44,220 nt of DNA from Spirogloea muscicola (Eukaryota > Streptophyta > Zygnematophyceae > Spirogloeales > Spirogloeaceae): NCBI GenBank assembly GCA_009602725.1, contig WELB01000024.1:685502-729721 (forward strand). Direction: 5' to 3'. The notes beneath the pieces are model-generated. The model was given only the letters and a program-made list of their open reading frames with translations, had not been told where the DNA came from and did not search any database. The position numbers and the translations under genes were made by a program. This document shows, piece by piece, positions 357-43,402 of this stretch; the first letter of the stretch is position 1; each line of letters starts with the position of its first letter.

Positions 357-475
357 GAGAAGGTGCTCGCCCATAGAAGAGAGGGGCTGGCAGGAGCCAG
401 CCAAAAAAAGAATGGACAAAATCCAAAGAGCTACAGGAGAATCACTCAGTAACCTCTGCTAAGCAGCCGCAGGTC
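357..475 (-). repeat. S-type retroelement 3' copy
   Basis: Read on the minus strand, 475-446 encodes DLRLLSRGY and a TGA stop. It is followed by the S-type 3' UTR, with the GGCTGG/CCAGCC stem and the terminal GGGCGAGCACC block near 360. It belongs to the subfamily whose stem is preceded by a variant of TTTGGATATTGTCCATTC. Confidence 0.75.
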
Positions 476-479
476 CTGT

Positions 480-960
480 CGGGCCCCGCCGCAGCCCCAT
501 CCGTCTGTTGTCCTCCGCAGCGCCTGCCGCCGCGCCGCGTCGCCTGCCGACCCGCGGATCCGCCGATGCGCCAACGCGCCTGCGCCACGGTCCGACACGG
601 CGGGGCCCAGCAGCGGCGGCCCAAGGCGGGCCCAGCAGCGTCGCCACTCGCGCCGCGAGCCGGACGGCGAGGCCACCGCCACCGCCAGCCGGCCTGCCCG
701 CAGGCGCCACGGGCGGAGGGCCTCTGCGGGGCCCACGGCAGCACAGGTGACGGCAGCGCAATCGACATCGGAGCGCGCTGGCGTGCCGGGAGCGGCCCGA
801 GCGGGAAGTAGATGCAGATACGGTGTGGGCCGCGTACGCAACAGTGGAGTTCGAGACGACGGGGCCGCCCGCTTTCAGTGTCAGGGCAAGCGGGCCGGTT
901 GTATCGGGGATACGTGTTTCGTTTCACGCCTGCTTTCGTGGCGGCGCTCCAACTCCCCAA
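480..960. other. GC-rich stretch without a recognisable gene
   Basis: This stretch is strongly GC- and CpG-rich and has overlapping open frames on both strands (longest about 170 codons, minus). All are Arg/Ala/Pro-rich as expected of GC-rich DNA, and none resembles a known family. Similar islands in this window sit at gene starts, so it may be the relic of one. I see no splice-linked coding exon. Confidence 0.4.
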
Positions 961-968
961 GTCAGCTT

Positions 969-998
969 GTCGGATTTGTGCTCACCCGTGGGTACTGA
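969..998 (+). repeat. Degenerate copy of the retroelement C-terminal motif
   Basis: The 30-nt block reads VGFVLTRGY followed by TGA. It matches the DLYVLTRGY block at 1272-1301, but its start is altered: an upstream S-L-S-D-L reading is in another frame, which suggests a small indel. Confidence 0.5.
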
Positions 999-1064
999 TG
1001 TCACCTTATGAACCTTAGTGTAGGTTCTCCGTATTATGCAGCCCTGTTTAGTTTGCCCAAGACT

Positions 1065-1400
1065 CTGCCTTGAACAATGTATCGGCTTGAACTGGCCTCC
1101 ATTTCAATTCATGCGCCCCGTGCGCCTTCTCTCTTTTCGCTCTTGCAACGACGAGTTTCGGCCTGTTTGCAGCGTGCTCAGGCTAGTGCCTTGCACCAGA
1201 AAGCTGGGCGAGCTCTAGGTGGTGGCAGAAGGGCTCCGTTTCTGGCATCTAGTATTCATGCATCGATCATGGACCTTTATGTTTTGACCCGTGGTTATTG
1301 AGCGGGTCAATCTGCTGTAGGTTATGTAGATCTTTAGATGTGCTTGCCTTTGTGCTTGGTCATTTGGCCTACATTCGTTTCTAGTACATGGATTTACTTT
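1065..1400 (+). mobile_element. Non-LTR retroelement 3' end fragment
   Basis: After a T-motif (1070-1135), an open frame runs to a TGA at 1299-1301 and ends DLYVLTRGY. Residues Q-K-A-G-R-A-L upstream of the terminus match K-A-G-R-A-L at about 28395, and the DNA from about 1155 aligns with 28350-28491. The 3' UTR shares TGTGCTTGCCTTTGT and CATTTGGCCTACATT with 28895-28950. A short hairpin with TTGACCCG/CGGGTCAA arms spans about 1284-1311. It is a 5'-truncated, non-autonomous remnant. Confidence 0.65.
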
Positions 1401-1935
1401 TTTCTTTTACACAGCTTAGAAGCCCCCCGCGCACACCCCCCCATGGCGGGCTTCTTCGCCGGCCACGCCGCCGCCAAGCCTGGCAACCCATGTGCTCGCG
1501 CCGCTCTCGCACGGCTTCCGCCGCACTCCTCGCCTCGCTTGGAGGCGGCCGCTCACCCTGCCTCGGCGCCTCTTGCCCCCCTGGCCGCAGCATCGCAGCC
1601 CGCGGCGCCCGCGACACTCCTCAAGCTCTCCTTCCCCCCGGGCTCAGAACATGCATGTGAACAGTCCTGCAGCGTCCTTTGTCCACGCGGCCCACGCTTT
1701 GCCCCCTCAATTGTCGCCATGTGCGGGTCGCTCTTCCCCATCATCAATTCCCGCCATGTGCGGGTCGCTCACCTCCCTAACCATCTCTCCCTCACCATCG
1801 CCATCCCTTTGGGCCGTGTGTTCATTTTCGTTGGGCTGGCCTTTTACAGCTGGCGCAAGTGTATCGAATGCGCCTGGCCGTCTCGCTGCAGAGGTCTATG
1901 GCCCGGGCGTTGCACCTTCGTGCCCTCCCTGCTGC
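1400..1935. other. GC-rich segment, no gene recognised
   Basis: An open frame of about 225 codons (1338-2015, plus) crosses this segment and ends in the adjoining S-type element in the wrong frame for its peptide. Its composition is Ala/Pro/Leu-rich without a domain. A 19-bp direct repeat (CGCCATGTGCGGGTCGCTC) occurs at about 1715-1733 and 1752-1770. I do not support a protein here. Confidence 0.4.
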
Positions 1936-1938
1936 CTC

Positions 1939-2146
1939 TGGCTCTGGCCAGGGGACCCACTTCCACGAGCCTAGCATCTCCGACCTGCGGCTGCTTAGCA
2001 GAGCTTTCTGAGTGATGCGTAGCTGCTTTGTTTCTCTGTGTGCTTGTTTTCGTAGCGCTTCCCCTGGCCCCCTTCTCGTACTCTGTTCATTCTTTTTTGG
2101 GCTGGCTTTTCCGGCCCCTATTCTCAATGGGCGAGCACTTTCTTCT
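1939..2146 (+). repeat. S-type retroelement 3' copy, near full length
   Basis: It starts at TGGCTCTGGCCAGGGG like the copies at 26414-26632 and 43217-43402. It encodes Q-G-T-H-F-H-E-P-S-I-S, then DLRLLSRAF and TGA (1982-2011). The 3' UTR carries a GGGCTGG/CCGGCCC stem and ends GGGCGAGCAC-TTTCTTCT. Only the last two residues of the peptide deviate from its relatives. Confidence 0.8.
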
Positions 2147-2159
2147 TTTACAGCCAAGC

Positions 2160-3280
2160 CCCGCTGAGGGAGCTTCTTCCTTCACCAGCTCATTCGGGCC
2201 CGTCATAGAGCATCGGCACATTCAAAAAGACCAGGCGTTCAAAAGGGCGCTGATTGCTTGACGGCCCACCAAGGTGCCCATGTCGGCTACTGTGCCCCTG
2301 CTGGCGCATGCCACTGTGGTAAGCAGCCCTTTGCAGGTTGTGTTTTTTAAATTTTCTCCAGAAGCATGACCATGGCATGTCATTGACTGTAAAATAACCC
2401 AGACCGCCACTATCAATCGCCAGTTTCGAAATCTCTCCAACGGTTGTGCAAGCAGCTACCATTCGGGCAACTCGAGGTAGCAGCAGTACGCTCATATTTG
2501 CTCAGCACTCAAGCAAACACTCTGTTTGCTCGCAAGAAGGGAGTGGCTCATGCATGTCAAGTATGTGATCCTAATGGCCAGCACTCAATCTGAAAGGACA
2601 TTGTTCCTTTACAGCCTTTCCAGCAGTAATTACACTGTCAATGTCCTGCCAGCGACTCTCAGTGTGCTGCCTTTGCCAGCAAGAAGCTGCTGGAGGACGC
2701 AACATGGCAGGCAAGTTAGTGTACGCTCTCATCACCATTTCGGCAGGAAGCAGACAGCTCCTTGTCACGTTGAACGCAGCCCTAGTGGTGGCCAGGACCC
2801 CGGACTCACTGTTCGCTGTATCTGCTGCAGCCAGGCTAGCCGTCACTCGGCCTGGCATTGTAAAAACCAGACTTTTGAGAACATTCATTCCGTCTGCTAC
2901 AAATATCCGTGGCGGCTACAGTAAGAAATGTTACCTTCTCCAGCATCTGATCCAGCTGGTGGATGCGCTTTGTCGTGGCCGGGGGGGCAGCTTGGGGAAA
3001 ACTAGCATTCCGGTCACTGCATGTTACAGAATGAGGCTTTCGCTAAGTTTGCAGCGATCCCAAGCTATGGCTGTTTACAGCTTGCTGAGCGTGCACTAGA
3101 CATTGGCAAGTCGCTTCCGTGGATTGCTCCGGCTCCTCAATGAAGCCTCTCCCCTTTGCGTATGCTCACTAGTGGGTACTGAGTCCCCCTTCAGCCGGCT
3201 TTCCTATCGCTACCTGAGCCACCTTAGCGTACGGCTTTGCCTTGTAGCCCCTCTTGTTGCACACTGGCTTTTGCCTGAAG
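2160..3280. other. Unresolved stretch with overlapping open frames
   Basis: Open frames of 100-152 codons overlap on both strands (plus 2641-3099; minus 2190-2495 and 2571-2888). Both strands offer plausible AG acceptors and neither translation matches a family I know. The stretch ends at about 3165-3190 with a decayed relative of the TGGGTACTGA retroelement terminus, so part may be retroelement-derived. No function is assigned. Confidence 0.3.
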
Positions 3281-4010
3281 ATATATTTGGCTAAATCTGG
3301 CCTCCACTTCATTCCATGCGCACCGTGCGCCCCTCTTCTTATCTGGCACGGCGCGAGCCGCTGGCGCCAGAGGGCTTAGGGGTAGGAATGTAGTTTGAAG
3401 GATTAGGCCTGCAGCGAGCCTGGGTGCCGAGTGGCTCATGCAGCGAGCCAAGCGGAGGCCCAGACGGGCGGCCAAACCAGGCCGGGCTCCCACGCCGTTA
3501 TCTGGCTGGCTGGCTCACGCTCAGCTGTGGCCTTGAGCTCATCGCTGCCACGCCGCTGCATGCATGGCCTGGCCACCGCGTGACCGCCCTGACTTCCGAG
3601 TGAGGGCGTTCGGGCGTGGACACGAGATTTCTGAGAACGGCTTTGCTCGCCAGCAGCCATAGCTTGCGCTCCTACCACCTGCAACTGGGACGACCGCAGT
3701 GACCGCCCTTGCCGCGCCGCCACTGTCTTGCTCCTCACACCGGCCTGGCTAATCTGCGGAAGCCTGAGACAGGGCGTCTACCTGTTGAGCGGTAGCACAG
3801 ACATCAAGTCGGAGGTGAGCAAGGGTGGAGGAGGCAGTATTGGTTAAAGTGTGCCATTACGGCAGCATGACTGCACGTTGCTCTCGCACGGGCTACAGCG
3901 CTCCTCGCCATCCCTGGATACTTAGGGTAACATCAGCCTGGACCCAACTTGTATAGAATCATAAAGACATGCATAGCTGTCCACAACAGTCACATGCATT
4001 TCAAGACCTT
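3280..4010. other. No gene seen; short T-motif fragment at 3290-3335
   Basis: Bases 3290-3335 are a fragment of the T-motif repeat (GGCCTCCACTTCATTCCATG, then CGCACCG). The rest has only short open frames on both strands. It may contain upstream sequence of the gene around 4.0-4.9 kb. Confidence 0.4.
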
Positions 4011-4024
4011 GCTTCATTGCGCAG

Positions 4025-4869
4025 GTAAAATCTGTTTCAGCACAGAGGAATTTGCTGGCTGCAGTTGTTGGTGTGCCTAGAGAATATACTGCTGATGGGT
4101 ATATTCGCCACAGTATCCTGTGAGGGGTTGCAGGTAAGTTCGTGACCTGCACCTCGATGAGCGAGGCAGCTCTTATGCTTCCTTCTGGAATTTGGTGGTA
4201 AGCTTTCTGGTGGAACACTCCACGTCATTGCAATTGCCGTAAGTCCATGCTGACTGCAAAGCACATTGCGAAAGGAGGCAGTCTGAAGTCGCATAAGGTC
4301 CATCCATCCAGGCTGACGATCACAAGCCTACTTTTACACAGCTGTGCTATCTTGGGCCTGCTATGGGCCTACTATAGATGTTGTTTCTGCCTTAGCACGT
4401 CATTTATATGCATGCTTGTCCACTTTTGTTTCAGTTTGTCAGAGCGGCAGCACGCAGTAGCATCCGTCAACCCGTAAGCCGGACTCCATGCTGGTTGGCT
4501 GGGGCTCCAGTTTCAGGCCTCACTTACAAGCAGCTGCAGGCAACATCAGCGGCTTGCTTCTCCACGATAATTTACTGCGAGACGTACTCGAAGCTGCAGC
4601 TTGGCCGCCCATCAGCTGCTGAGGCTTTCTCATCAAAAATGAAGGAGCTGCAGATCAGGAATCCTGCTGTGGACCACTATGTCTTCAACTGTTGCTCTCA
4701 GAACAATATGATCGCTGCCAATGGTTACAAGTACGGATTGACATGTGCGGATGATGGTTACGGTGACCGCAACGGCGTCACAATGGGGGACTTGGACGAG
4801 GACACCTACGGGGCGCAGCACACTATTCTGAACTTCGACTACTCTCCCAGAAGCAAGCTGCTGGAATGA
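4025..4869 (+). CDS. Unrecognised protein, C-terminal exons (partial model)
   Basis: I do not recognise this protein. The last exon is open from about 4444 to the TGA at 4867-4869, preceded by a good acceptor (TTTTGTTTCAG). Its C-terminal 75 residues are acidic, with NPAVDHYVFNCC, GYKYGLTCADDG and LDEDTYGAQHTILNFDY, a composition unlike incidental frames. A second probable exon at about 4025-4117 reads SAQRNLLAAVVGVPREYTADGYI, shown here as overlapping parts SAQRNLLAAVVGVPREY and REYTADGYI, and follows GCAG. The splice joining the two and the 5' end are not resolved. It could be a lineage-specific protein. Low to moderate confidence that it is a real gene. Confidence 0.4.
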
Positions 4870-5583
4870 CATGGGCACACACACGGTAGTGCCCATGTCT
4901 ATACAACCTACTATGTGGCAGGAGCACCGAAGAAGAGCTGCACGTTAACAAACAGATGAGGACATGCAGCAACATGTAAAGGTTCCACATGATAAGACGC
5001 TTTAGCGTCAGACAGAGTTGCACACAGATCAAAGGTGTCACCACGGCCTTACATCACTCGACTTCACATGCCTCGGCGTTTCAGTAGTAATGCAGTTCAA
5101 TTTTGCTTAGTCGAATTTCAGCATTGACAGCAACAGCATGACTGCAGGACGGTCTTGCATCAAGTCCTGTACTGAATCTTAGGCTTCAGCTGAGAGATCG
5201 GCGCCTGTGTGTACACTGCAGCACATATAGCACATCAGTGAACAAACTGCACCTTTGATCCCCATGATGCTCTGCATTCATACGCACTGAGCAAGGAGGC
5301 TGCAGCTACTGTGCATGCATGCTGCAGCTGATAATGGTGGAGATGCGGCTCAGGACGGACTCTGAAGTACATGCCAACGTCCTGTAGTATACACGCGCCT
5401 GACGTGGACTGTGAATCTGGGTAGCAAGCTAGCATGCCTGTCATCATTGACATGAGATCTCGTGCTATGCATTTGCATTGAATAGCAACTGCATTACATA
5501 GCAGCCTCCAAATGGGGGGCCTTCGATTTGATAGTAGAGCGACCGATAGGAGCGTCATAAAGCATCACAATCTGTGTATACAG
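4870..5583. other. Convergent intergenic region, no gene
   Basis: This lies between the 3' end of the unrecognised plus-strand gene and the 3' end of NOT3 on the minus strand. There are only short open frames and no repeat family member. Confidence 0.5.
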
Positions 5584-8500: not shown

Positions 8501-11500
8501 CTTGTGGTACCAAACGGCTGGATTCAGGAGGGCTTTCCCGCCCAAATGCTGCAGCCAGAAGTGAGGCTCGTCTTCGTGTAGCTAGCATCTGTGACTAGCA
8601 CAAGTCAGTCGTAGTGTTACTGCTTAATCTTGTAAGATTTGGCTCGTCCTACTGACGTTGCAGGCCGCCGGAGTGGCTGGTGTAAATCTAAATGACACAA
8701 CTATAAATGGACAAGTCGAGTATGCGATGAGAACATACAGATTGCGGAGAATGAGCAAGGTTGCAAGGAGACAAGGACTTGTTTCTTTTCCGTGTGTTCG
8801 ACATGTCTTCAGAGCATCCAGCGGCGGTTGGGCTGTATGCGCTGTCGGGTATTTGCATCGGCGATGGACTGCCCATGGCATCTGGCATTAACGATCCATG
8901 TGAGTGATTCAGATAAAAATATTTGCACGTCTTTTGAGTTGATGATCGAGATGTTATGTCCTGGGAATCACTGGCACCAACATAGCAGAAGCGTAACGAG
9001 CACTTTCAGCAGCTGAACACCTGTCAAGCAGGAAGAACGACACCCTGCTCGAATGCAACCAGTATCCTTCATGTAGCGCATAAGTAGGCACCTCAGTCAT
9101 AGACCCAAGCCTTGGTGTGCACATTACCTGTAACTTGTGGTGGAAATGCATCTGCCATAGTTGCTTGAAGCTCCTGTACAACCAACATAGGCCACATATT
9201 CAGCTACCATGCCCTATGCTCACAGAATTGCAAAAGATGCTGCTGTCAACTTGCAGTACACTGCTAGCTTTTTCCATAGAGATTAAGACAAGGTACAGTT
9301 ACTGCATGTTGACATTGTCAAGCAGCATACTAGACCTCCCATCAGTGTACGACTTGCGGGACTCAATCCTTTGGCCAAAGATTGGTCGACTGGCACCTTC
9401 AGCGAAGTACCACTTGTTGGTGAAGTGGCTGGCACAGCAGCTGCACTCTTCGGGCTGAGACCAGGTATAGCTTTGGCTGCACGTCAAGCACACATCTCAT
9501 CATTCGTTCTGTCCTCTAGATGCAGCCATCAGAAGCAGATACCCATGTTCAAGTGTAAGTCTCCAGGCTTCCATGGCTGCAGAAACAGATGCTTCAGGCC
9601 ACCATGCACAGATATCACAACATGATGCGAATATGCGCTGGTCGACTGATTAACACCGTATGTAAGGGTGTTTCCTGATATGGCAGCCAAAGCGCAAGCC
9701 TATTTCTGAGGTAGCATAATAGATATGCTGACAGTGATTTTGCACGACCTGCGCGCCCAATGCTAAGTTCTTCTCCAACTTTGCTGTCCAGCTTGTCAAA
9801 TGGGAGGTGACTGTAAACCGTCTCGTCATGCATGTAGTCTGGGTCCTGCATCCAGAAGTATGGGTGGTTCATATAAGCATGTTTAGGACGAAGCTACACA
9901 GCATTGAGAGGCTTGGTGGTACTCAGCTGGCATGCCTAAGAGACATATCGACCTTCCTTCAAAAGCTAAATAGCTGAACACGTGCTCGTACTTCCAGCAT
10001 CGATCTGCAACACAGCATAGACTGTAGCTGCAAGTACATGACGCCCTGCAACAGCCATCATGTACTTCAGAATGCACCAAGACATAGAACCTATGTTCGA
10101 ATCAGGTAGCCACCTGATTCATGTCAAGGTAATATTCCAGCGTGTCTCTCAGGTCGTCAACCTCTTGACAGGCAATCTCGTTGTTCTCCAGCAACCTATG
10201 TACCTGTGTAATACAAAAACAGGGTAAAGAGGTCGCCATCAGCAAGAGCAGGCTGTGAAACCAGCAGTACCTGTACAGTTGCTTGATTCTACACCATGTG
10301 CTGCTCCTGGTACTAGTTTCTTATGTGGGAGGCTTAAGCGAGCATGGAAGTAGAGCTTGCTAGGTAGAGTGTGAGATAGCACTGTGGTCATTACTAGGAC
10401 GACTCGACCCCGATGCAACCTTCAAATAACTTTGATACCTGTTCCAACTTTGCACGGTGCCACTTGTTCTGCACAGCAACACATGAATGTGAGAGCGTGA
10501 AAGCACACTGATGTGGGAGTGGTGCACTATTGAGATGTCTTCGGCATGATTGCAGACAGACATGCATCAGTGTTTGGAGGCTCTATCCAGAAGCTTTTGT
10601 TGCTTTCAGAAATGGCTGACGAGGCCAGGATGAGGACTGAAGAATGTTACGGCTTTCAACTACTGCTTCCTGGGTACTGAGCTTCCATCTGCATCTTCTC
10701 GTGTCTAGTTGTTTAGTTTTCCTTTTCGGCACCAATTTTGGCTTTGGATATTGTGCATTCGTTATGGGCTGGCTTTGCCAGACCCTCTTCTCTATGGGCG
10801 AGAAATTTCTTCCAATGGTGCAGAGATACTTTTCTTACCCTGTCAACCATGCACTCCAGCTCGGAAACCCTTGAATATGTCTTCTTGTTACTCCTTCCTG
10901 AATGGGAGCAGCCAATTGCAACAATGATCTCAAATTGCTGCCAATTGAAGGTCAGCATTGCTGTCCACAGTTTGTATTAGCTCAAGGGCTTGCTGCAGCT
11001 CCTCTACTTTGAGCCTCGAATCCGTAGGACCAAAATGAAACCCTCTGAGCTAAGTATTTTCTTCCAGAGATTATAAGTTCGTCATAGATGACATCGGATG
11101 CATGCAGTGCCTCACCTGGCCCTATGATTTCAATCTCTGCTTCAAATGCATCAATTTGCAGCTGAAGCGCATCAATTGTCTGTAGAAGCACACCACAAAG
11201 GTATCATTCCGATCCACTGTAATGAGGTCCAGCTGCAGCCAGTCTGTTCGAACAGGTGTGCCATGCATGATGCTGAAGCGCTGCTTACAGACTCCAAAGT
11301 ATGCTAGCTTACCTTATTGAGGAAGGTTGCTGCTTCGGCCTTCCCCTGCTCCTCTGGGTCCAATTTAGGCTTTGCCATGAACCGCATGACCAAATTTCGA
11401 ATCAAAAGTATTCAACAGATGCAAATGATGTCAATTGACAAGTCAGTGGGCATGACAAGTTCACAAGCACAATCCTCTCAGTACTAATACCAGTGTCCAT

Positions 11501-12281
11501 GAGCTGTCCAGCCGTGTACCTGCTGAACAAGCCCTTCCTTGGAGAATGCTTTTATTTTAGAGGCCTTTTCGCACTGCTTAAAGCGCTCCATTTCCTGTTC
11601 AATCTGCTTCCGTGCGCTCTCGAGCTGGTCTGACAGCGCTATATCTTGAGTGGACAGCCATGTTCGGATCTGATCTCGATATCTGTCGACAGTATGGCCA
11701 CCGCACAGCCAGAGAGGATCTCTCCACTTCTAGGACTAGGTGACCACATGTATCGATGCTGGCGCGCTTTGCATTCAAGTTCCACGAGATCATGACTCTG
11801 GAGTACGACACAGTCGCTTGCAGAATGCACATGCACGTGCAAGAGGTCAAGGATGATGGTATGTTGGTTTATGGGTATGTCAGTCGACTACGAGTCCGTA
11901 AGACAATGTGCTCGTACCTCTGTAATTTCTTAAGCTCCTTCTTCAGCTCGTTTTCGAATTTGTCCTTCTTTGCTGCCTGCTAATTCAAAAAGTGTCAAGT
12001 CATGGAGGCGTCGTAGTCATACTCCAGCTGCGCTAACAGATGTACCTAATTCAACACGTCTGCATGCAAGCTGTTGACTCATGTGACAGATGACGAAGCG
12101 CAGGCGTGGCTTATTGCTTGACAAAGAGAGGAAGGTCTAATATGAGCTTGCTCGCAAGAAGCTTACTACGCACATTGGTGGCTTGGTCCATCTTCTCCCA
12201 AGTCCTGCCGAATTCGTCCAGCCCTTCTTGGACCTTCTTCAGGGTCCTCTCTACCTCCAGCTGCATCTTCTTGGTTCCCAT
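5584..12281 (-). CDS. NOT3: CCR4-NOT complex subunit 3 (NOT3/NOT5)
   Basis: This is a scaffold subunit of the CCR4-NOT deadenylase, which shortens mRNA poly(A) tails. The ATG is at 12281. The N-terminal coiled coil is spread over exons 12281-12174 ([20 protein letters not shown]), 11979-11918 ([15 protein letters not shown]), 11682-11520 ([19 protein letters not shown]), 11369-11313, 11179-11116, about 11010-10965 and about 10467-10434. Then come 10203-10114 ([25 protein letters not shown]) and 9845 onward ([11 protein letters not shown]). The middle (about 9.7-7.0 kb) is Ser/Thr/Gln-rich and only partly resolved. The C-terminal NOT box lies in an exon ending 6578 ([17 protein letters not shown]), 6258-6157 ([20 protein letters not shown]), 5951-5860 ([10 protein letters not shown]) and 5653-5584 ([10 protein letters not shown], stop TGA). 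An open frame appears to stop at 5856, but a GTAAGC donor just before it leads to the final exon in phase. Confidence 0.93.
10742..10813 (+). repeat. S-type 3' end inside a NOT3 intron
   Basis: A 5'-truncated S-type copy sits antisense in a NOT3 intron. It has TTTGGATATTGTGCATTC, the GGGCTGG/CCAGACC stem and GGGCGAGAAATTTCTTCC. It shares its leading block with the copy at 16172. Confidence 0.7.
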
Positions 12282-12600
12282 CGAGCAGGCGGGCTGCTCG
12301 GAAGGCGCCGGAGAAGTACGCAAGCAAGTGTGTTACAGTCTTTCCTGAGTATGAGCAGCTCCACAAGTGGCAGACGCAGCCGCAGCCGCAGCCGAATGGA
12401 GGAGCGCCGCATTCGTGTCCCTGCCACGCGCTAACAGGCAGGCCGGTGGTGGAAAGGAGGGCTGCGGAAGGGGCAGATTAAGGCCGCGGCTTTGGGGGAC
12501 GGCGCTGCTTGTCCTGTGCCTGCAGTTGAGACGTCGCCAACAGCAAATTCCCCGGCCGAGGGACCCCCTCTGCCCCTTAGACCCGGATAACGGCGACAGC
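12282..12600. promoter_or_regulatory. GC-rich upstream region of NOT3
   Basis: The sequence upstream of the NOT3 ATG rises in GC, like the regions before the other genes in the window. It presumably holds the 5' UTR and promoter. No specific element is recognised. Confidence 0.4.
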
Positions 12601-12602
12601 TA

Positions 12603-12830
12603 GCGGTCACGTTTTTGGGGCCCAATCTGGCGTGGCCAGACCGCGGTCTTGTGAGCCTCGCCCTCTCCACTCAGCAGCTGCAGGTGAGCGACAAGTAGAG
12701 ATCCGGAGAAGTTCAGGTCTGCAAGGTTGCAAACCTTGGAGCAGTTAATGGCTGCCTCGTAATCAGTGCCAACATACCCCAATGTCTCAGCAATCCAGCC
12801 CACAATACTCGTAGTACAACTTAGTCACAA
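12603..12830 (-). CDS. Unassigned exon-like open frame
   Basis: On the minus strand this stretch reads GWIAETLGYVGTDYEAA, then INCSKVCNLADLNFSG and SLLVAHLQLL. This is well-balanced composition, unlike incidental frames nearby. An apparent CACCTGCAG junction lies near 12680. I find no clear partner exons between 12.83 and 13.72 kb and do not recognise the family. It could be a lone exon, a decayed gene or part of the NOT3 upstream transcript. Confidence 0.3.
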
Positions 12831-13722
12831 GATACAGCTTCAAGGTGAGAGTACGTTGAGTGAAGATGCAGACGACAGTAAATCACTACCCTATAGCTGT
12901 AATCAGTTATTAGTATTGAGGCAGCATGCGAGCGGACATGTACATGCTGCAGGGCCAGTGATATGGCAGGGCACCGAGTGCCTCCAAAGTATGTGCATGC
13001 TACATGCAAAAGCAGACTACACGTGCAATAGCAATTGTTGCAGCACCTAATGGCGTGGCTGTTGACAGGGAACAAATGGCGCCACGATCACATGTGGCTA
13101 GAGTAGAGCATGCAGATAACCCAGGCCGCGTCAAGTAGTAACTATAGTTGCACAATTGAGCTTGGCTCTTGCTCTTGCCATATGTTAGCTTGTTGAGATA
13201 TCTGCGACATTCATTCCGACAGGTTCCCCACAGAGCTGGCAGGATACTAGCACATTGTTTCTGCCAGGTTTACTGGCATTAGTGGCAGAAGTGGCATGCT
13301 TGACAACACCCGCAATGCTGGCGATGCTGGCAATACCTGCCAGCAAGCACTGCCTAGCAAGCAGTCATTTGCTTATTTATTTAAGGCTGTCATCGTGGAC
13401 ATATTCAGAAGAACTCTGCACTGCAAGGCGATCTGGAATATTCCCTCTGCCCGGTTGCTATATACAATACTGGCCACTTGCTCATTCAGTTGGCGGTGAT
13501 GTTGCCTTGAGTGCTTATCCGTATCATGTCCTCCATGTCTCCAGTGCTGCAGCAGCCAATGAGGCATGCATGCATGAGCCAAGTCTCAGTCGTACACCAT
13601 TTGCTTACGTGCATATTTGGATGCACTTCCAAGTCCAGATTCAAAGTCAACAATCTAACAATCTTCTGATTATTGCCCTTCGCTTAATTGCGGAGCGATG
13701 CACATCTTGCGATACACCATGT
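12830..13722. other. Intergenic stretch, no supported gene
   Basis: There are only short frames. A 219-codon plus-strand frame beginning at 13255 runs antisense through the verified last exons of the TSJT1-like gene, so I treat it as incidental. Confidence 0.45.
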
Positions 13723-15669
13723 TTACCTGCTTGCACGAAAGAGGGTACCACAAAGCTGGCCATGGCTGTTGATACGATTCACTCCCTTCATTGGCTGCCC
13801 AAGCTTCACATAACTGCAGCATATGGGCAAGCTTGTCATTATTTGTGCCGGCCAGTCAGCAACCTGAACAATGTACAGGTCTGCATGTCAGCAAACCATC
13901 AGCATACCTTCTAACATGGCCATCTTCAGAAGTGCTATCTCCCTCAAAATAAGATCCTGCAGGAAACTCTGACGCAGCTCCGGGTCCTGAAGTGCACTCC
14001 TCGGAGAGTATACGCAAATTTGACGACAACAACAGAGCTCCTGCAAGCACAACCCAGCCACTTGAAAGGCTGCCACCTAGCTAATCACACCCCTGAAAAT
14101 GACAACTAAAAGTGGTAATGTATAAATCAGGACCGCTTGTGATCACTTCACATTTCCGCCCTTGCAACCAGAAACCCAGATCCAGTGTACTTCTGGCTTG
14201 TCACTGAAGTGGAAATGGGGTCCCAAGTCAGCCAAGCTTGAGCGTACCCAATGGGGAGCAGCCCCAGAAAAGGGGTGCTCCGGCTGATCTGGCAGCGAGT
14301 ACGTAGTTGCAGGATGCATCATAAAGAATGAACGAGTATTGGCCCTGCACCAGCAAGTCATTGTGTACGATGGTGGTGAGACCATAGCACCTCACATTGC
14401 TATGGACTTGCGTAAAGCCTGCAATTGGACACCTTAGATAAGTATATGCAGCATGTTGTGCCTTGGGAGTTGACTGCAACACTTGAGAAAGTTTCTTATT
14501 CAGCAATGACAGTTGCTTGTAGAGATTTGTAATGAATACTTGCCCTGATAGCGTCAAGACAAGTCTGTGGCTGAGCACTTTGATCACCATATGCATCAAC
14601 AAAGCCCTGCAGTACAAAGTGAGATTTACTACTGAGACAGACCTGCAAGGGATGAAGTGCGAATTACTCAATGCCAGTGCGATGTAGGTCTTGTTCAGAG
14701 CAGATGCTTCTCAACAGATGTTATACCTAGGCAGCGCTTCTGACCTTGCAGTACAAAGCCAGGAGGAGCTGAGCGCTCGTAGAGGTGAAAGTGCTGAAAG
14801 TATCAGTTGCTTGAAGACTAGCTGGTAGGAGGCCGTACAGGTCTCTCATCTCTTCGTCATTGTCTATCCTCCAGAACATTACAAGAAATGCTTTCTGCCC
14901 ATCCCTGCACCATCATAAAACGTGTTCATGAAGGCATGTCTAGAGTTCAAAAGCATGTGAACCCTGTGCATGCCAGCATAGAAGCGTACTTATGCAGAAA
15001 ACACATTTAGCTTGTCATGGTGCCTAGAAAGAGGTACTCATCAGATACAATAATTTAGTAGAGCGGTAAATCAGTATAGGCAGTGCAGATGAAGTGGCTA
15101 AGTTGGACGTACAGCGAATTGGTACATTCTGCGTAACTTACGCTCTTGTCAAGTCCATCGTAGGCAACAGCAGCTCCTCCAGCCATGAGGTCTACAACCT
15201 GATTATCACGCAGTTGCCTCAGGACATCAACCCCAGAACACATGAGGGTAGCTTGGTGGTGGTTGACAGAATCACCACAAAGCAACCAGCATCAATGATA
15301 GCACCAGCATTGCTGCTTCCAAATGTCAAACCTTCTTGTGCATGTGATCGGGAAGGCACATCCTCATTCTTCTCATGGTGTCCTGTACTACTTCATCACC
15401 ATCAAATCCCAGCCTGCATGTGAAATTTGCAAGACATTCCAACAATGTGATATTGTGCAGTAATCCACAGAACCACAGCAATGCTCGTTTGAAGTATCAG
15501 CCTTCTGTGAATCCAATGCCATCAGAACCACAGATATACATCAGAATATGCCACAGGTGAGGTCAATCAGTCTTGAGGTGTACCCAAAGTGACTGTCATC
15601 AGCTCCCGCTCCCCTTTTGTCCATAGCAGAAGGTGGTTGCACACACATATTTGAGATGACGGCGAACAT
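13723..15669 (-). CDS. TSJT1/AILP1-type glutamine-amidotransferase-like protein
   Basis: This belongs to the plant stem-specific TSJT1 / aluminium-induced AILP1 family, which has a class II glutamine-amidotransferase-like fold of unsettled biochemical role. The start at 15669 gives MFAVISNMCVQPPSAM; the family characteristically opens with a short MLA[IV]F-like segment. Later pieces read VDVLRQLRDNQVVDLMAGG, AVAYDGLDKS, IDNDEEMRDLYGL, QGQYSFILYDASCNYV, LAARSAGAPLFWGCSP, SDKPE, SEFPAGSYFEGDS and QPMKGVNRINSHGQLCG. The last exon 13813-13723 joins the previous one in phase and ends in TAA. The join between LFWGCSPLG and SDKPE near 14235 is not in frame with any GT-AG intron I can see. No neighbour hints at a role. 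Confidence 0.78.
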
Positions 15670-15983: not shown

Positions 15984-16270
15984 TGTCCATTCCTTTGGGC
16001 TGGCCTTTCCCAGCCACCAGTCAATCTGGCCGCGCTTCTTTTTTTCCCTTGAGGAAACTCCGCAGCCGGCGCGGATTCCGTTGGGAAAAAGCTCCTTCCT
16101 TTAACAGCCTATTGTCCATTCTGTTTGGGCTGGCTTTGCTAGTCTAGATGCCTAGCTAGTGTTGGAGCTCTTTGGATATTGTCCATTCTTTTTTGGCTGG
16201 CTTCTGCCAGCCCCTCTCTTCTATGGGCGAGCTCATCTTCTTTGCTAGCCCCTCTTCTCTATGCAGCTCT
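15984..16270 (+). repeat. Cluster of truncated S-type 3' ends
   Basis: Three partial copies lie in tandem: 15984-16020 (GGGCTGGCCTTTCCCAGCC), about 16110-16145, and 16172-16242. The last begins TTTGGATATTGTCCATTC and has the GGCTGGC/GCCAGCC stem and GGGCGAGC. They appear to be nested, 5'-truncated insertions. Confidence 0.65.
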
Positions 16271-16280: not shown

Positions 16281-16550
16281 CAGGTCGAGTCGACATGGCC
16301 CCCGTCAGCACGGCTCCCCCCCGCTCTGTGGCGTTCTGTGGGGACCCACTTCCAGGAGCCCAGCATCTCTGATCTGCGGCTGCTTAGCAGGGGTTACTGA
16401 GTGTCTCGTAGCAGCTTTGTTTCTGTTAGTTAGCGCTTCCCCTGGCCCCCTTCTCGTACTCTGTTCATTCTTTTTCGGGCTGGTTATTCCAGCCCCTATT
16501 CTCAATGGGCGAGCACTTTCTTCTGTGGCACCTCCGGCCCTCCTAGTAAT
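16281..16550 (+). repeat. Composite repeat carrying an inserted S-type element
   Basis: Sequence on both sides matches the uninterrupted copy at 47-113. The insert 16333-16529 is an S-type element encoding GTHFQEPSIS then DLRLLSRGY and TGA (16371-16400), with its 3' UTR ending GAGCACTTTCTTC. It is bounded by the direct repeat TCTGTGGC at 16325-16332 and 16522-16529. The empty site at 88-95 has one TCTGTGGC. Confidence 0.8.
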
Positions 16551-17099: not shown

Positions 17100-17984
17100 G
17101 GCCAAACGCCACAATATCCGGCCCCACCCCCATTTCCGCCTACACGTCCTTCTCCCGTTCAAAAGCCATAGCTCTGCTAATGAAAGGCAATGGCTGTGTC
17201 TGGATTTAGGCTTATCATGCCCCGGCTTCCAAAGCGGAGCTGTCGAGAGGGAGCTGTAGAGTCCTCAATCGGGCTTCTGCATTTTCTCCCGAGGACCAGC
17301 ATTCCACCCTCGTCAGCAGCCCAGATGCAGATCTGCTCATTGTGGCACACAGAGATCAGACACTCAGATACACCGACAGCTGAGGCTCCGCCCTCAGTCA
17401 GCCACACAGCCACACAGTCGCACAGTACACAGTCACACAGACGGCACAGGCTCCGCTCTCGATCAGAAATCAGCCACAAGGTCACACAGACAGCACAGGC
17501 TCCGCCCTCACTCCGTGGGTGGCTGCTATTGCTAGAGCGACGGGAGCAACAGCGTGATCGCCTCAGATCCACATCTGAGAACGAAGCCCGATGTGCCAGG
17601 GCACCCCTCCTAACAGGGAGCGCTCCCATCGCCCACAAGGCTGAGTCAGATGGTCATCCAGCCCTGGCTGGATGACCATCCGCTGATTCACATAATCCCG
17701 CAGAATGGTTCCCCGGCCCAAACTGCTGAATCACCTACATGCAACATCCTCAACACAATTACTCCCGCCTTCAGCCTCCATGGCAGGCGCCCCTACCGCC
17801 GCCAAACACCCGACGTACCATACTTGACAGGATAAGAAGAGGCCAGCTCGTCCAGCAACTGCTGCTGTCTAGGCTATCAGAGGCAGGCAGATGATGGGCC
17901 AAGCTTCAAATGCTCCTTCATTGCCCCCTAGCCTAGGGAACTGCCTGGTCCCAGGAGACCAAATAAGGTGGGCAACATTGAGAT
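17100..17984. other. Low-complexity stretch with palindrome, no gene recognised
   Basis: Bases 17390-17515 contain imperfect direct repeats of CACACAG and of GGCTCCGCCCTC/GGCTCCGCTCTC. Frames of about 150-160 codons run on both strands and are explained by this repetition. A near-perfect palindrome lies at 17649-17680. Confidence 0.4.
17649..17680. repeat. Perfect 15-bp inverted repeat with 2-nt spacer
   Basis: GATGGTCATCCAGCC at 17649-17663 is the exact reverse complement of 17666-17680, separated by CT. It could extrude as a cruciform or be the footprint of a foldback element. It is not part of a recognised gene. Confidence 0.85.
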
Positions 17985-26054: not shown

Positions 26055-26392
26055 GCTCGCGCGCCCGGCGCAGCCAGAGGCAGCCAGAGGCGCCCAGCCC
26101 AGCCAAGCCGGCGGCGGCGGCGGCGCGCCCGCGCACAAGGCGAGGCCGCGGCCTGAAGGTGCGGCGCTCCCGGCGCTGGCTGGCGACTGCGCGCGCCGCC
26201 GACTGCGGTGCCGCTGCGGCGCTATGAGCGGCTTGGGCGCAGGAGGCCGCCATGGCGGGTGGTGGGGGGAGCCTTCGCCGAGCCGGGCGTGGAGGTCGGC
26301 TCAGGAAGGTTCGACAAGGCGATGGCAGGTGACGACGGGGGCCCACGAGCAGCCGCCGTGTGCAGACCTCAGCGAGGCCGAGCAGACGGTGG
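26055..26392. promoter_or_regulatory. GC-rich upstream region of the dioxygenase
   Basis: A CpG-rich segment upstream of the ATG at 26054 probably holds the promoter and 5' UTR. Frames of 100-290 codons across it are compositional. Confidence 0.4.
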
Positions 26393-26653
26393 GGTTTGGC
26401 TAATCCTACCATCAGAAGAAAGGGCTCGCCCATTGAGGATAGGGGCTGGACAAGCCAGCCCAAAAAAGAATGAACAAAGAACGAGAAGGGGGCCAGAGGA
26501 AGCCAGAGGAAGCGCTAAGAAACCAAAGCAGACAAAGAAAGAAAGCAGCTACAAATCACTCAGTAACCCCTGCTAAGCAGCCGCAAATCAGAGAGGCTAG
26601 GGTCCTGGAAGTGGGTCCCCTGGACAGAGCCAGGTTTGGCTAATCCTACCATC
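26393..26653 (-). mobile_element. Complete S-type element with 21-bp target-site duplication
   Basis: The 21-bp direct repeat GGTTTGGCTAATCCTACCAT plus C flanks the element at 26393-26413 and 26633-26653. The element itself (26414-26632, 219 bp, minus) starts CTGGCTCTGTCCAGGGG. It encodes G-T-H-F-Q-D-P-S-L-S then DLRLLSRGY and TGA (26589-26560). It continues with a 3' UTR bearing the GGGCTGG/CCAGCCC stem and ends CCCTTTCTTCT directly at the repeat. Long target duplications and a fixed 3' end are the signature of target-primed reverse transcription. Confidence 0.88.
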
Positions 26654-26973: not shown

Positions 26974-27030
26974 CTGAACAACGTATTGACTTGAGATGGC
27001 CACGCTTTCATGTGATGCGCACCGAAGAAA
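26974..27030 (+). repeat. T-motif fragment
   Basis: A diverged T-motif: GAACAACGTATTGACTTGA followed by GATGCGCACCG. The closest relatives are at 184, 1070 and 16654. Confidence 0.6.
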
Positions 27031-27149
27031 CAGCGCGTCCGAGTCCTGGTGGCTGTGAGAGGCGAGCCCAAAGGAATGGACAAGGTCTGAGGGGGCCAGA
27101 TGGCGTAAGAAGCAAGAGACTAATTGCTAAGACGGCAGCAAGGGGGCTC

Positions 27150-27179
27150 TTAGTAACCTCTGGTCAGGAGATGCAAGTC
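27150..27179 (-). repeat. Retroelement C-terminal motif, TAA-ending copy
   Basis: The minus strand reads DLHLLTRGY then TAA. It is the only stop-ending copy that uses TAA, which supports independent codon-level divergence. Confidence 0.65.
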
Positions 27180-27454
27180 GAAATAGCTAGCACCGCGCAC
27201 GTTCTCTCCAATCTAAAGCCATTCCCGTAGATTGAAAGAGCTCACTTCCTCGCCATGGCCTCGCCATTGGCGGCAAGTCTCAGCGATGCCGGCCTGCGAA
27301 CTGGGGAGAAGGATACTCCCCCAGGCTGCTTCCAGCTGCAAAGTTACTCCGACTTGCGGCAGCTCTGACTCGGAGTTACTAAGCTCCCACTCAATGTAGT
27401 CATTTGCGTTGCTGTGTGGTCTTAGCACCTTCCGGCCCTTGAACCTTTGGACCT

Positions 27455-28510
27455 TTGGACCATGTCCAACCCTTCTGGCTGGATTCAACAGCCCCCCACC
27501 CCTTTGACAACCAACGCTCCATGCAACTCCTCCTCACTCCTTTCTCAGCGCTTGGCCAAGCACCGGACGAAGGGGCACAGGCAGGACTTATCGCTGCAGT
27601 CAAAAATGAGCGTCGAAAGAAGCTGAGGAGGATGCCAGAAATGAGGACCAACGCAAAGAGTCTGGCACGACTCATCTCTCTGGCAACACCTGGGGCTACC
27701 GACTGGCTCACGACTCACGCCATCCACAATGCCTTCGAGATCAGCGCCGAGGCCTACTGGACGCTCCTCCAATTGTTCCTTGGCCTGCCCCCCACCTGCC
27801 TGACCGGAGTATGTCTGTGTAATTGCGGCTTTCACACGGAGGGCGGAGACCTCGTTATGCATATCCTGCAATGTCCCACAGGCCCTGAAGCGGTGGGCTT
27901 TCAATGTCCACTACGTGATGCCCTGGCGGACTTATTGCGTGACGCCAGCTACCGCGCCATTGTGGAAGTGAACAACATTATGCCCATCAACACGGATGCT
28001 CAGGGACGCCATCACCATCGCACCCCAGACATTATGTGTGTACAACCTGGCGGAGGGCCACGAGCCTTGGTCGATGTGGTTGACGGAGGCGTACAAGAGT
28101 CCAGCATCAACCCACATTGCTGGCCACGCATTGGGAAGTGCAAGAGCGAGGAGGCTGCAGCACTACTCTGACTACCCCCGCAGTGATCACCTCCTACTAG
28201 TTGCAATTAACACCTTTGGCTGCATGGGTCCTCGTTTTCATACCCTACTTGAGATCATTGCAAGTCTCGGATATGCACAATGTGAGAATATGCCTCCAGC
28301 CCAGATGGGCATGCCGGCAGCCTATCTGTCGATTTGCGACGTCATGTGATAGCCTATTTGCAGCAAGCTCAGACTCATGCTTGCACTAGAAAGCTGGTCG
28401 AGCCTTAGCTGATGGCACGAGGGCTTGTCAACTGCCGTGCGGTTTTCGAGGATCAGTTAGCGACCTCTATGTGCTGACTCGTGGTTACTGAACGGGGTGA
28501 TGTACATGTG
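27455..28510 (+). pseudogene. Non-LTR retrotransposon ORF, 3' half, decayed
   Basis: Frame 1 (27455-28171) contains a zinc-knuckle-like C-x-C with H and C (CLCNCGFH, then HILQCP) and an R-T-P-D-I-M-C-V/A-L-V-D-V-V nuclease-like motif. This arrangement is typical of the C-terminus of some plant and algal retroelement polyproteins. Homology then continues in frame 2 (27996-28349: RARRLQHYSDYP, LLLVAINTFGCMGPRF) and again in a third frame to a terminal DLYVLTRGY-TGA (28462-28491). There are at least two frameshifts and one in-frame stop (about 28386). No reverse-transcriptase domain is present, so the copy is 5'-truncated and inactive. Confidence 0.72.
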
Positions 28511-28731
28511 TCAATGCGCTTGAATTCGTACTTGGCCACTCAGGCCCTCCATTACTTGAGTTCACACTCCATTCCCCTTTAGTATTGCCACTATCATTCT
28601 GAAACTGCTCCCTCTCGCCGCGGGCCTCCCCCCGTCACAGTATACATAAGGAAAGAAAGCATACAGCCGAAGGGGGAGGATGCTGTAAAATGCCAGCCCG
28701 ATAATAAATGACAAGGTATATATGCACTTCA
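28511..28731. other. Retroelement 3' UTR and unassigned sequence
   Basis: The first 70 bp resemble the 3' UTR after the copy at 1301 (a CTTGGCCACTCAGGCC-like block). The rest shows no gene. Confidence 0.35.
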
Positions 28732-28800
28732 GAAGAAAGAGCTCGCCCATAGAAGAGAGGGGCTGGCAGAAGCCAGCCAAAAAGAATGGACAAAAGAATG
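28732..28800 (-). repeat. Truncated S-type 3' end
   Basis: The reverse complement carries GTCCATTC, the GGCTGGC/GCCAGCC stem and GGGCGAGCTCTTTCTTCT. The upstream block GTCCATTCTTTT is duplicated. Confidence 0.7.
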
Positions 28801-28884
28801 GACTTCTCTCTCCGCCGAATGTGTTTATCTATGTGCCTACAGCGGGCCCAGGCGATTGCTTTGCATCGCCGGGCTGGTCGCGCC

Positions 28885-29190
28885 CTTAGATTTTTAGATG
28901 TGCTTGCCTTTGTACCTGGCCATTTGGCCTACATTTCTTTCTAATACACGATCTTTACCCTTGAAGCAGCCTCTGGTTTGCGCAGCGGGGTTGCTCTTCC
29001 TCCCCTCAGCTCATCTGACTTCCTACTGCTGACACGGGGGTATTGAGGGCGCCCTGTCTGCCTAGCCTTTGGCTTCGCCATGAACACCTGTATGCATCTG
29101 GCTGGCAGTTTACAGCCGATTCTTTGTTCATTCTTTTTTGGGCTGGCTTGTCCAGCCCCTATCCTCAATGGGCGAGCCCTTTCTTCTATT
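28885..29190 (+). repeat. Retroelement 3' end plus S-type 3' end
   Basis: Bases 28890-28950 match the 3' UTR block at 1330-1395. The following frame reads LSSSDFLLLTRGY and TGA (29017-29046). An S-type 3' end with GGGCTGG/CCAGCCC and CCCTTTCTTCT lies at 29124-29188, with a possible 6-bp target duplication ATTCTT. Confidence 0.65.
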
Positions 29191-41500: not shown

Positions 41501-42490
41501 ATTCAGACATGTACGTCTATCTTTAGTAGCTGCTAGCAAAATCACGAGCATCTTGGCTACGAAATCTTATACTTCTGCCTCACTTGTCAGCTTCTAAATC
41601 CCAAGTGGGCAGAGAAGATGGCTGCAGCTGGCTCAGGTGGTGCTTATGAGATTTCTCAGGTGCTTCTCTATACTGGGACAGTGCGCCAATAGCACATCAC
41701 CAGTTGATTACCCTTGATGAGCCTTGATGCGCCAGCTAAGGCAGATTGATGTTCTATCAATCAATTGGGTACACGAATCATTTGCTACAATATGAGCACA
41801 TGCCAACATGTGACATGAGTCCAGCAGTATGATGCGCACGTTTGCTGAGTGGAGGATTCGATCACGCAGTTCACATGCGTCTGATGCTTATCTATCCAGA
41901 GAATGACTGCACTGCTTGGCTGGGGAGGGACTGCAAATTTCAGGGAAGATTGGGTCTACAACCAGGTTTGGCTGTCCTCTCATGCTGGTATGATCTGCTC
42001 GTGTCTTCTTGCTGCTGGCTACAACATGCAGACATTATGGGCTACAGAATAGGAAGTGAGGTGAGGCTTCACTACAATGACAGGCCTCAGAGACCTACGC
42101 GTTGGATGACAAGATGGCTGCTCAGCTTAGGAAGAACAACCCTCAGGTATGCCTCTGACATGGTCAAACTAGCTTAAGTTGGGCATGCATAAGGGAAGGT
42201 TCGTTGCTCTTACTGGCTCTGCAGTCGTGAACTTTGAAGGTATAGATTCCTCCTGAATGCCCACACCTCTGCACTGGGGTAAGCGATCAGGGTTCTCTGT
42301 TTGTTGTTACCGCCCATTCATTACAGCCCACCTTCTCGGCCTGCAGGCATTCCAAAACATTGTGAAGAGGATGTTGGAGGCAGCTGGCCGTGGCCTGTGG
42401 GAGAACCCGGACCCTTCTACACTTGAGAGGTTGCGGACCCTCTATGCCGAAGTGGACGAGGAGCTAGAGGGAGTAAAGCAACTTGCCTAG
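29543..42490 (+). CDS. CHLH2: Magnesium-chelatase subunit H, BchH-like isoform (CHLH2 type)
   Basis: This is the large porphyrin-binding subunit that, with ChlI and ChlD, inserts Mg2+ into protoporphyrin IX in the plastid. The core is spliced from 31160 to TAG 42488-42490 in 37 exons (3,975 nt, 1,324 residues) with consistent phases. Landmarks: [16 protein letters not shown] (31160-31358), [11 protein letters not shown] (31838-31900), [13 protein letters not shown] (32865-32975), [20 protein letters not shown] (33544-33785), [18 protein letters not shown] (34213-34268), [13 protein letters not shown] (34412-34606), [20 protein letters not shown] (35232-35344), [20 protein letters not shown] (36421-36575), [19 protein letters not shown] (36768-36903), [12 protein letters not shown] (37551-37619), [14 protein letters not shown] (38730-38789), [16 protein letters not shown] (39070-39188), [16 protein letters not shown] (39635-39735), [12 protein letters not shown] (40535-40622), [11 protein letters not shown] (41591-41659), [19 protein letters not shown] (41900-41965). 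These motifs are closer to bacterial BchH than to plant ChlH1/GUN5. The 5' part (29543-31004) has a plastid-like leader and coiled-coil exons; that it belongs to the same protein is inferred. Confidence 0.93.
30036..31004 (+). CDS. Coiled-coil exons, N-terminal extension or separate gene
   Basis: Exon 30036-30308 reads [31 protein letters not shown] and [12 protein letters not shown]. Further exons read [20 protein letters not shown] (about 30585-30713), [14 protein letters not shown] (about 30806-30850) and [20 protein letters not shown] (about 30943-31004). Heptad-like Leu spacing suggests coiled coil. The last exon ends in phase 0 at a GT donor (31005) and can join directly to the first BchH-like exon at 31160. 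One junction between 30308 and 30590 is unresolved. I know no such segment in standard H subunits. It could instead be an independent upstream gene. Confidence 0.5.
36310..36420 (+). other. GC-AG intron in CHLH2
   Basis: The exon ends ...ERDLTPHPQ with CAG|GCATGT and the next starts TACGCAGCATTC (YAAFYKW). Family alignment requires [10 protein letters not shown], so the donor is GC, with a normal AG acceptor. Confidence 0.75.
38566..38729 (+). other. GC-AG intron in CHLH2
   Basis: The exon ends GGDLLRDGP with CCAG|GCGGGC and the next starts GTGTACTGCC ([11 protein letters not shown]). The conserved [11 protein letters not shown] string forces this junction, and no GT lies near enough to replace it. 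Confidence 0.7.
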
Positions 42491-43149
42491 TATGCACTAT
42501 TGTCGGGCAGAATACCTGCATCCTCCCAACTGCTTGACATTGTTGAGTTCCAGGCTTTTGACTGGAGAGGTTTGATAAGTCAACTGCCTTCGTGGGACAC
42601 AGCAGCGAAGTGCCTTTAGAACCAGGACTTCAAGCAGCCCCTTGATGGGCTACCATATGCCAGTCAAGGATGGAATTGCTTTATAAAGGGCGGATGCAGT
42701 CAAGGGGTTGCACGGAAGAGTGCACCTCCTATCTACTTCAAAGTGGGTGCCACACAGTAGGTGCCACTCAGAGAATCAGCTGTGGTGGCAGTACCGTGTA
42801 GCGCTGCAGCAGCTACACCATGGTGGGCTTGGGTCGTTGCCACAAGAAGGTAGCAGACTTGGCTGCAACTGCGGGCGTTGAAAGTTGGCTGTCGAAGCCA
42901 GCAAAGTGCGCACGCTCGCTGGGCGTGCTCCTACAAGAGCGGAGGCTGTGATGGCAGCCACCGCTCGAGAAGGTAGACAGCAGGGAAGAGGTCGGGACTG
43001 CAGACGAAAGAGTCATCGGGGCCTGCAAGGACGGGGCGAGCAGGGGCGCGCAGCAAGAGACGGTGGTTGTTGATACCTGGACGTGGTGGCGGAGGCCAGC
43101 TGTGTGGGCAAGGTGGTTGGGGCGGAGGCTGTGTCTGGGCGCGTATGGG
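42491..43149. other. CHLH2 3' flank and GC-rising region, no gene recognised
   Basis: The first few hundred bases are probably the 3' UTR and intergenic. From about 42,880 the sequence becomes GC-rich like a gene start, but frames on both strands are short and unrecognisable. Confidence 0.4.
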
Positions 43150-43159
43150 CCCTCCCGCT

Positions 43160-43402
43160 ATCATAGAGAGAAGAAGAGCTCGCCCATAGAGAAGAAGGGG
43201 CTGGTATAGAGAGAAGGGCTCGCCCATGGAGGATAGTGGCTGGGAAAATCCAGCCCAGAAAGGAATGAACAAAGTACGAGAAGGGGCCAGGGGAAGCACT
43301 TAGATCAACGAGCACAATAAGAAATTAAGCAGCTCCGAAGCACTCAGTAACTCCTGCTAAGCAGCCTCAGGTCAGAGAAACTTGCCTCCTGGAAGCGGGC
43401 CC
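43160..43402 (-). repeat. S-type element, minus, with nested second 3' end
   Basis: The reverse complement starts near GGCCAGGGGGCCCGCTTCC and encodes Q-G-A-R-F-Q-E-A-S-F-S then DLRLLSRSY and TGA (43373-43344). The 3' UTR carries TTCTCGTACTTTGTTCATTC, a GGGCTGG/CCAGCC stem and GGGCGAGCCCTTCTC. A second GGGCGAGC terminus lies at 43166-43203, so one copy interrupted or followed another. Confidence 0.78.

Follow-up and report, generated by a model that had tools for sequence, protein, structure and literature searches.

Dispersed peptide-coding blocks in the genome of Spirogloea muscicola as probable 3' ends of six related LINE families

Blocks of the window and their parent reading frames

A stretch of 44,220 nucleotides of the streptophyte alga Spirogloea muscicola (GenBank assembly GCA_009602725.1, contig WELB01000024.1, positions 685,502 to 729,721 of the forward strand), hereafter called the window, contains ten dispersed 30-nt blocks, each made of ten codons of which the last is a stop. 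A preliminary description of this DNA, based on the sequence alone, had reported these blocks and attributed them to one or more active non-LTR (long terminal repeat) retrotransposon families with a protein ending in the same signature; all ten were found at the positions and on the strands that it gave. The results of our analysis indicate that the blocks are very probably the 3' ends of the single open reading frame (ORF) of six related families of non-LTR elements of the LINE (long interspersed nuclear element) kind, hereafter named A, A2, B, C, D and G, so that the striking scatter of one peptide is accounted for as LINE tails. The host assembly spans 153.1 Mb in 471 contigs, and light-harvesting (chlorophyll a/b-binding) domains match at 68 places in it, indicating that the host is photosynthetic.

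The full-length ORFs expected elsewhere in the genome are present in all six families, with lengths from 1196 to 1521 codons. We considered as parents the loci that were read whole and carried an uninterrupted ORF without N, lengths being counted from stop to stop, which may add some flanking DNA at the start of the frame, as happens in the B copy L011. The A parent has 1267 residues and ends in DLYVLTRGY, that of A2 has 1350 (DLYVVTRGY), those of B have 1328 and 1350 open codons (DLRLLSRGY), that of C has 1292 residues (DLFVLTRGY), that of D has 1278 (DFLLLTRGY) and those of G have 1196 and 1521 codons (DLHLLTRGY); a further family, F, is represented by C-terminal fragments only, without a verified intact parent. 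Between families the parents align over 1082-1318 residues with 39-77% identity, the closest pairs being A and A2 (77%) and B and G (62-67%). The decayed element at 27.4-28.5 kb, which had been said to end in the same peptide, is indeed a copy of the A family with 80% identity, its frame being open at 27443-28171 and broken thereafter. When its part 27443-28168 was used to search the genome, 150 matches were scored of 4957 candidates, among which 27 tie at 313.6 bits and nine have a 1267-codon open frame (L009 was read whole). When C-terminal peptides served as queries (families A, B, C, D and F, and G-like copies), 150 matches were scored with each, of 11,094 to 15,635 first-look candidates, totals that are rough and overlap between families.

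Many tails seemed to lie beside open frames of 2,000-9,600 residues, which proved to be assembly gaps or other runs of N read as X in the three loci that were fetched (L013, L014 and L015); the frames of about 1,300 codons at L037, L039 and L043 have the same cause and were rejected as intact ORFs. A long open frame in the search tables is thus no proof that an ORF is intact. Several assembly gaps start within these LINE copies.

To follow the signature along the window, we scanned its six frames with the motif D-[LF]-x-[LV]-[LVM]-[TS]-R-G-[YF]-stop, which has nine scored positions. Nine of the ten blocks score 8 or 9, and the block at 969 (VGFVLTRGY) scores 7; comparison by eye with the C parent places a 4-nt deletion inside this block, which therefore keeps the ancestral frame in its 3' half only. 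Five of the ten blocks belong to the single family B, so that the set comprises six families and not ten independent ones (table 1). The scan also yields three sites with a score of 6, of which 3153 and 10651 are decayed blocks overlooked in the preliminary description, whereas the weak site at 15024 on the minus strand has no match to any of the families. In five other 10-kb stretches of the genome, comprising 35.6 kb without N in four and a fifth (L047) made entirely of N, there are no blocks with at least 8 of 9 positions and two with 7. The window is thus enriched in blocks, and an extrapolation of its block density to the genome was rejected on the same count.

Table 1. Element copies and other features of the window. 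Extents are relative to the stop codon and identities refer to the fetched family parents.
Feature	Position	Strand	Extent and identity
B copy, block DLRLLSRGY-stop	446-475	-	match 443-475, -29 to +3, truncated at block
C copy, block at 969, C-type 3' untranslated region	929-1133	+	-73 to +133, 87%
A2 copy, block DLYVLTRGY-stop at 1272	1137-1388	+	-164 to +87, 93%
B copy, block DLRLLSRAF-stop at 1982	1849-2146	+	-171 to +124, 87%
Old C-like copy, decayed block PLRMLTSGY-stop at 3153	2890-3180	+	-308 to -2, 69%; C-like tail at 3262-3331
Decayed block GFQLLLPGY-stop with F-like 3' tail	10651-10800	+	match 10668-10800, -12 to +134, 78%
Young B copy, block DLRLLSRGY-stop at 16371	16340-16524	+	-60 to +124, 99.5%
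B copy, block DLRLLSRGY-stop at 26560	26414-26633	-	-73 to +124, 81% to B parent
G copy, block DLHLLTRGY-stop at 27150	27026-27190	-	-40 to +124, 76%
Frame-broken block relative (gacttgcggcagctctgactcggagttactaa), directly upstream of the A copy	27351-27382	+	
Decayed A copy, block DLYVLTRGY-stop at 28462	27518-28550	+	-977 to +75, 80% over 1054 aligned positions
D copy, block DFLLLTRGY-stop at 29017	28815-29187	+	-156 to +79
B copy, block DLRLLSRSY-stop at 43344	43214-43410	-	-66 to +118, 79%
Stem-loop tail	240-292		
Stem-loop tail	365-428	-	
Stem-loop tail	2084-2146		
Stem-loop tail	10752-10812		
Stem-loop tail	16170-16241		
Stem-loop tail	16462-16524		
Stem-loop tail	26414-26477	-	
Stem-loop tail	28731-28793	-	
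Stem-loop tail	29122-29187		
Stem-loop tail	43214-43275	-	
Three diverged direct repeats of 50 nt	17350-17513		
Tandem repeat	20384-20436		
Tandem repeat	24579-24645		
ORF with LigB-type dioxygenase domain	25588-26514	-	

Copy ends and insertion sites

The identities in table 1, from that of the G copy to that of the young B copy, indicate insertions of differing ages. Among eight long copies of the A family, all share a common 3' end about 100 nt past the stop, ending in ACGCATTT and followed by unrelated flanks, and six share a common 5' end about 100 nt upstream of the ATG. These 5' and 3' ends are common among the copies and mutually different, as judged by eye and with no separate search for LTRs. 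The 3' untranslated regions (UTRs) differ among the other families.

Copies of the B family were sampled by scoring the best 40 of 1293 candidates and fetching 20 near-identical copies, with a query that contained the block, so that copies shorter than the block lie outside the sample. Fifteen of the 20 were evaluable for truncation, five being dropped because of a gap or a contig end, and they start at -44, -45, -60, -67, -68, -90, -108, -117, -162, -165, -330, -474, -517, -717 and beyond -730, hence within 170 nt of the stop in 10 of the 15 cases. Since many copies measure just 170-300 bp, and three B copies of the window start between -60 and -73, we considered that the short copies could form a separate non-autonomous family similar to SINEs (short interspersed nuclear elements), in which a constant 5' head is joined to the 3' end of the LINE. 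The spread of 5' ends in the 15 copies, with different flanks and no fixed head, rules against such a family, and the window has no tRNA genes by ARAGORN and no Rfam matches at gathering scores; we consider this alternative improbable. The lack of a fixed head is instead as expected if reverse transcription starts at the 3' end and is left incomplete.

The copying of these elements as truncated LINEs may be pictured from LINE biology as follows. The protein would nick DNA and prime the synthesis of cDNA, starting from the 3' end of its own RNA, in the target-primed reverse transcription described for R2 (PMC3636483; PMC7650587). Synthesis would frequently halt early, leaving many insertions with the 3' UTR and the last codons only, and the terminal block would thus become the scattered part. 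Working parents would need the C-terminus of the endonuclease-side domain, which may be why the peptide is kept across families, and the scattered copies would decay after insertion.

Short strings shared by the two flanks, regarded as target-site duplications of the kind that target-primed reverse transcription leaves, were analyzed at 20 insertions (14 B and 6 A), from which L063 (B, 5' end beyond the stretch) and L020 and L026 (A, 5' end altered) had also been dropped. The mean longest shared string is 5.65 nt vs. 3.81 nt after shuffling, in which flanks were swapped between insertions, and none of 1000 shuffles reaches 5.65 nt; 15 of the 20 insertions share at least 5 nt. Otherwise the sequences around A and B copies are diverse, and insertion does not occur at one fixed target. 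Regarding the claim that the families are active, the support is indirect: recognisable target-site duplications, the 1267-codon frames of A and the tails of B, which are identical over 154 nt in 24 of 40 scored matches. Recent copies are also evident in the A family, where 130 of 150 scored tails show 100% identity over 59 residues.

Defining the insertion site as the 60 nt on the 5' side of the copy together with the 30 nt on its 3' side, for 19 sites (L051 was also dropped), we found the tail or the C-terminal coding sequence of relatives in 8 of the 19. The same content occurs in 85 of 2000 random 90-nt pieces from the four other 10-kb stretches and in 196 of 2000 from the window. Three of the eight nested sites were recognised by exact matches of just 18-21 nt, and repeat clustering could cause the excess in this small sample. 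Two nested cases lie beyond this count. An A2 tail of 63 bp (100% identical) splits the D copy of the window at 28887-28949, the flanking D matches overlapping by 5 nt; and the B copy L011 has a D-like C-terminal coding stretch as its 5' flank. A tail in the 5' flank of L011 is 99% identical to window 26416-26555. Insertions within or next to the 3' ends of relatives were seen at loci L050, L056, L057, L059, L064, L065, L022 and L009.

The 3' tails of B, F and G share a stem-loop, GGGCTGG...CCAGCC, although their ORFs differ; in B and F tails an outer stem is formed by TTCATT/AATGGG or GTCCAT/ATGGGC. This shared stem-loop is a candidate 3' recognition structure.

Conservation of the terminal peptide

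The six families, compared in 15 pairs, show in their last nine codons a proportion of synonymous differences (pS) of 0.75 and of non-synonymous differences (pN) of 0.18. The corresponding pS and pN values are 0.66 and 0.53 in the variable linker that precedes the tail, 0.79 and 0.32 in a helix-like region located before it, and 0.70 and 0.38 in the remaining main ORF. For the closer pairs, the last nine codons give 0.56 and 0.05 (A-A2) and 0.85 and 0.13 (B-G), while the ratio of non-synonymous to synonymous substitution rates (dN/dS) of the whole ORF is 0.15 and 0.22, respectively. The blocks of the window, compared between families in 35 pairs with 969 included, have a pS of 0.73 and a pN of 0.28 per site, and their shifted frames show no synonymous excess (pS/pN of 0.45/0.44 and 0.20/0.46). 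The excess at synonymous sites that had been predicted is thus found per site in blocks and parents alike; the wording that divergence is mostly synonymous applies per site and does not hold as a raw count, which amounts to 186 synonymous vs. 193 non-synonymous differences in the 35 pairs.

A conserved nucleic acid element, for instance an RNA or DNA signal recognized by the reverse transcriptase, could mimic such a block and be in frame by accident. Its location close to the 3' end, the region of LINE RNA signals, would suit this possibility, as would the retention of the block in short truncated copies, a feature of a sample in which the query contained the block and block-less copies were not drawn. 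The differences between families are concentrated at third codon positions (105, 84 and 190 at first, second and third positions), and the identity of the 27 sense nucleotides among the six families, 0.662, equals the 0.659 expected from the peptides and the codon usage of each family (standard deviation 0.020). When codons were redrawn on this basis, the observed identity was reached in 2270 of 5000 simulations, with the same outcome for five and four families. No constraint is therefore detected beyond the peptide, and the reading as a nucleic acid element, ruled out by this codon-usage null, retains very little probability. The conserved entity is the peptide.

That a short peptide should have recurred by convergence or chance in unrelated repeats is barely credible: the block is short and the 3' UTRs differ between families, but when the window was simulated 100 times with a first-order Markov model, the mean was 0.07 sites with a score of at least 7 (maximum 1), with none of at least 8, and the parents are homologous over the lengths given above. 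Parent ORFs and a synonymous excess, the absence of either of which had been named in advance as refuting, were both found; they support the original proposal of non-LTR families with a protein ending in this signature, the ancestors of the blocks being protein-coding and not random repeats.

Protein architecture, relation to known LINEs and neighbouring features

In the ORFs of these LINE families a proline-rich N-terminal region, which carries a C2HC-type zinc-finger motif, is followed by the reverse transcriptase (RT), a CCHC knuckle and a putative restriction-like endonuclease (RLE). After the helix-like stretch (RMRLSxSLQRSxAxALHxRAGRAL) and the variable linker, the protein ends in SD[L/F]x[L/V][L/V][T/S]RGY-stop, a tail that we infer to have a structural role in the domain on the endonuclease side. 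Five parents (A, A2, B, C and D) were compared with Pfam: all five match RVT_1, and none has a match to APE, RNase H or protease families at E<=0.1. The N-terminal C2HC-type motif is present in all five by pattern, while the Pfam zinc fingers zf-C2HC_2 and zf-C2H2_4 appear only below the cut-off, each in one of the five. A profile of the five parents matches R2 proteins best in the PDB (E 2.4e-14), the next kinds, mostly LINE-1, having values of 7.3e-7 to 9.6e-6 (an RNA-directed DNA polymerase entry 7.3e-7, LINE-1 1.4e-6); R2 and LINE-1 are the only LINEs among its matches. Downstream of the RT lies a D-x14-D motif with an invariant lysine (D1113, D1128 and K1155), and the assignment of a putative RLE is based on such motifs. 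The predicted fold of the decayed endonuclease fragment of the window had a mean confidence (pLDDT) of 35.8 and was not used.

The group of LINEs with a restriction-like endonuclease includes CRE, R2, R4, NeSL and HERO. The families described here resemble R2-type LINEs in their single ORF, their N-terminal zinc-finger motif, an RT profile that is nearest to R2 among solved structures, a putative CCHC knuckle followed by D-x14-D after the RT, the lack of an APE match in five parents and their 5'-truncated copies. They differ in their insertion sites, which are numerous and unrelated and bear short duplications, whereas R2-type elements use one fixed target, in the spacing of the knuckle and in the conserved tail after a variable linker, which was not found in the parts consulted of PMC5678591, PMC4640811 and PMC3636483. 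Site-specific insertion is usual and not universal in the group, since HERO has many non-specific elements (PMC4640811). Dualen/RandI elements, which carry both APE and RLE (PMC4640811) and occur in relatives of Chlamydomonas (PMC8226300), are also green-algal LINEs with an RLE (putative in our case), but the five parents lack any APE match. Zepp and Zepp-like elements are likewise algal LINEs found in clusters; Zepp elements of green algae are of the L1 type (PMC8226300), whereas the RT profile here prefers R2 and no APE was found. In NeSL/Utopia elements an RNase H or an Ulp1-like protease occurs, with variation from one Utopia family to another (PMC4640811); the five parents have no Pfam match to either at E<=0.1. 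We found no account of these families or of such a tail in the partial literature collection searched, and among 13 pattern matches in viral_contigs, the one collection searched for relatives outside this genome, none was confirmed. The kind of element is broadly known and the LINE families are new; they probably belong to the R2-like RLE group, placed no finer than the group.

Several results weigh against this interpretation. The A protein alone retrieves bacterial RTs of the group II intron type as the top PDB matches (2.9e-4), ahead of R2 (7.2e-4) and LINE-1 (3.5e-3), so that R2 is favoured by the five-parent profile only. The knuckle after the RT, CX1CX11-12HX3C with four residues invariant in position, falls outside the published CX2-3CX7-8HX4C of the knuckle between RT and endonuclease (PMC5678591). 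The C-terminal 300 residues have no match in Pfam (E<=1) or PDB (E<=10), so that the endonuclease call rests on motif and position. As to conservation, the terminal nine residues are conserved but surpassed by 109 of 1222 nine-column windows in the alignment of four families, and dS is saturated in most family pairs. Two of the ten window copies have mosaic tails, the block at 446 being followed by an F/G-like tail (match 365-428, minus strand) and the D copy at 29017 continuing as a B-like tail from 29120 on. Finally, the flanks share less than 5 nt in 5 of the 20 insertions, and present-day activity of the families is supported only indirectly.

A more far-reaching proposal, which we regard as doubtful, is that the families constitute an undescribed lineage of RLE LINEs in which the tail SD[L/F]x[L/V][L/V][T/S]RGY would be obligatory, its free carboxyl end docking or gating the endonuclease-RT complex, and in which preferential insertion within or next to the 3' ends of relatives would generate nested graveyards. 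If this preference were true, it would offer a natural case of self-sequence targeting. More immediately, the analysis draws attention to a conserved tail at the C-terminus of R2-like proteins, which are of interest for gene insertion (PMC13188248), and with the tail as a probe short LINE fragments of this genome can be annotated easily.

Among the neighbouring features of the window, the ORF on the minus strand listed in table 1 contains a LigB-type dioxygenase domain (PF02900, E 4.6e-10). Its frame opens within the B copy at 26414-26633, and the B tail thus lies 5' of the gene, of which it might form part of the leader.

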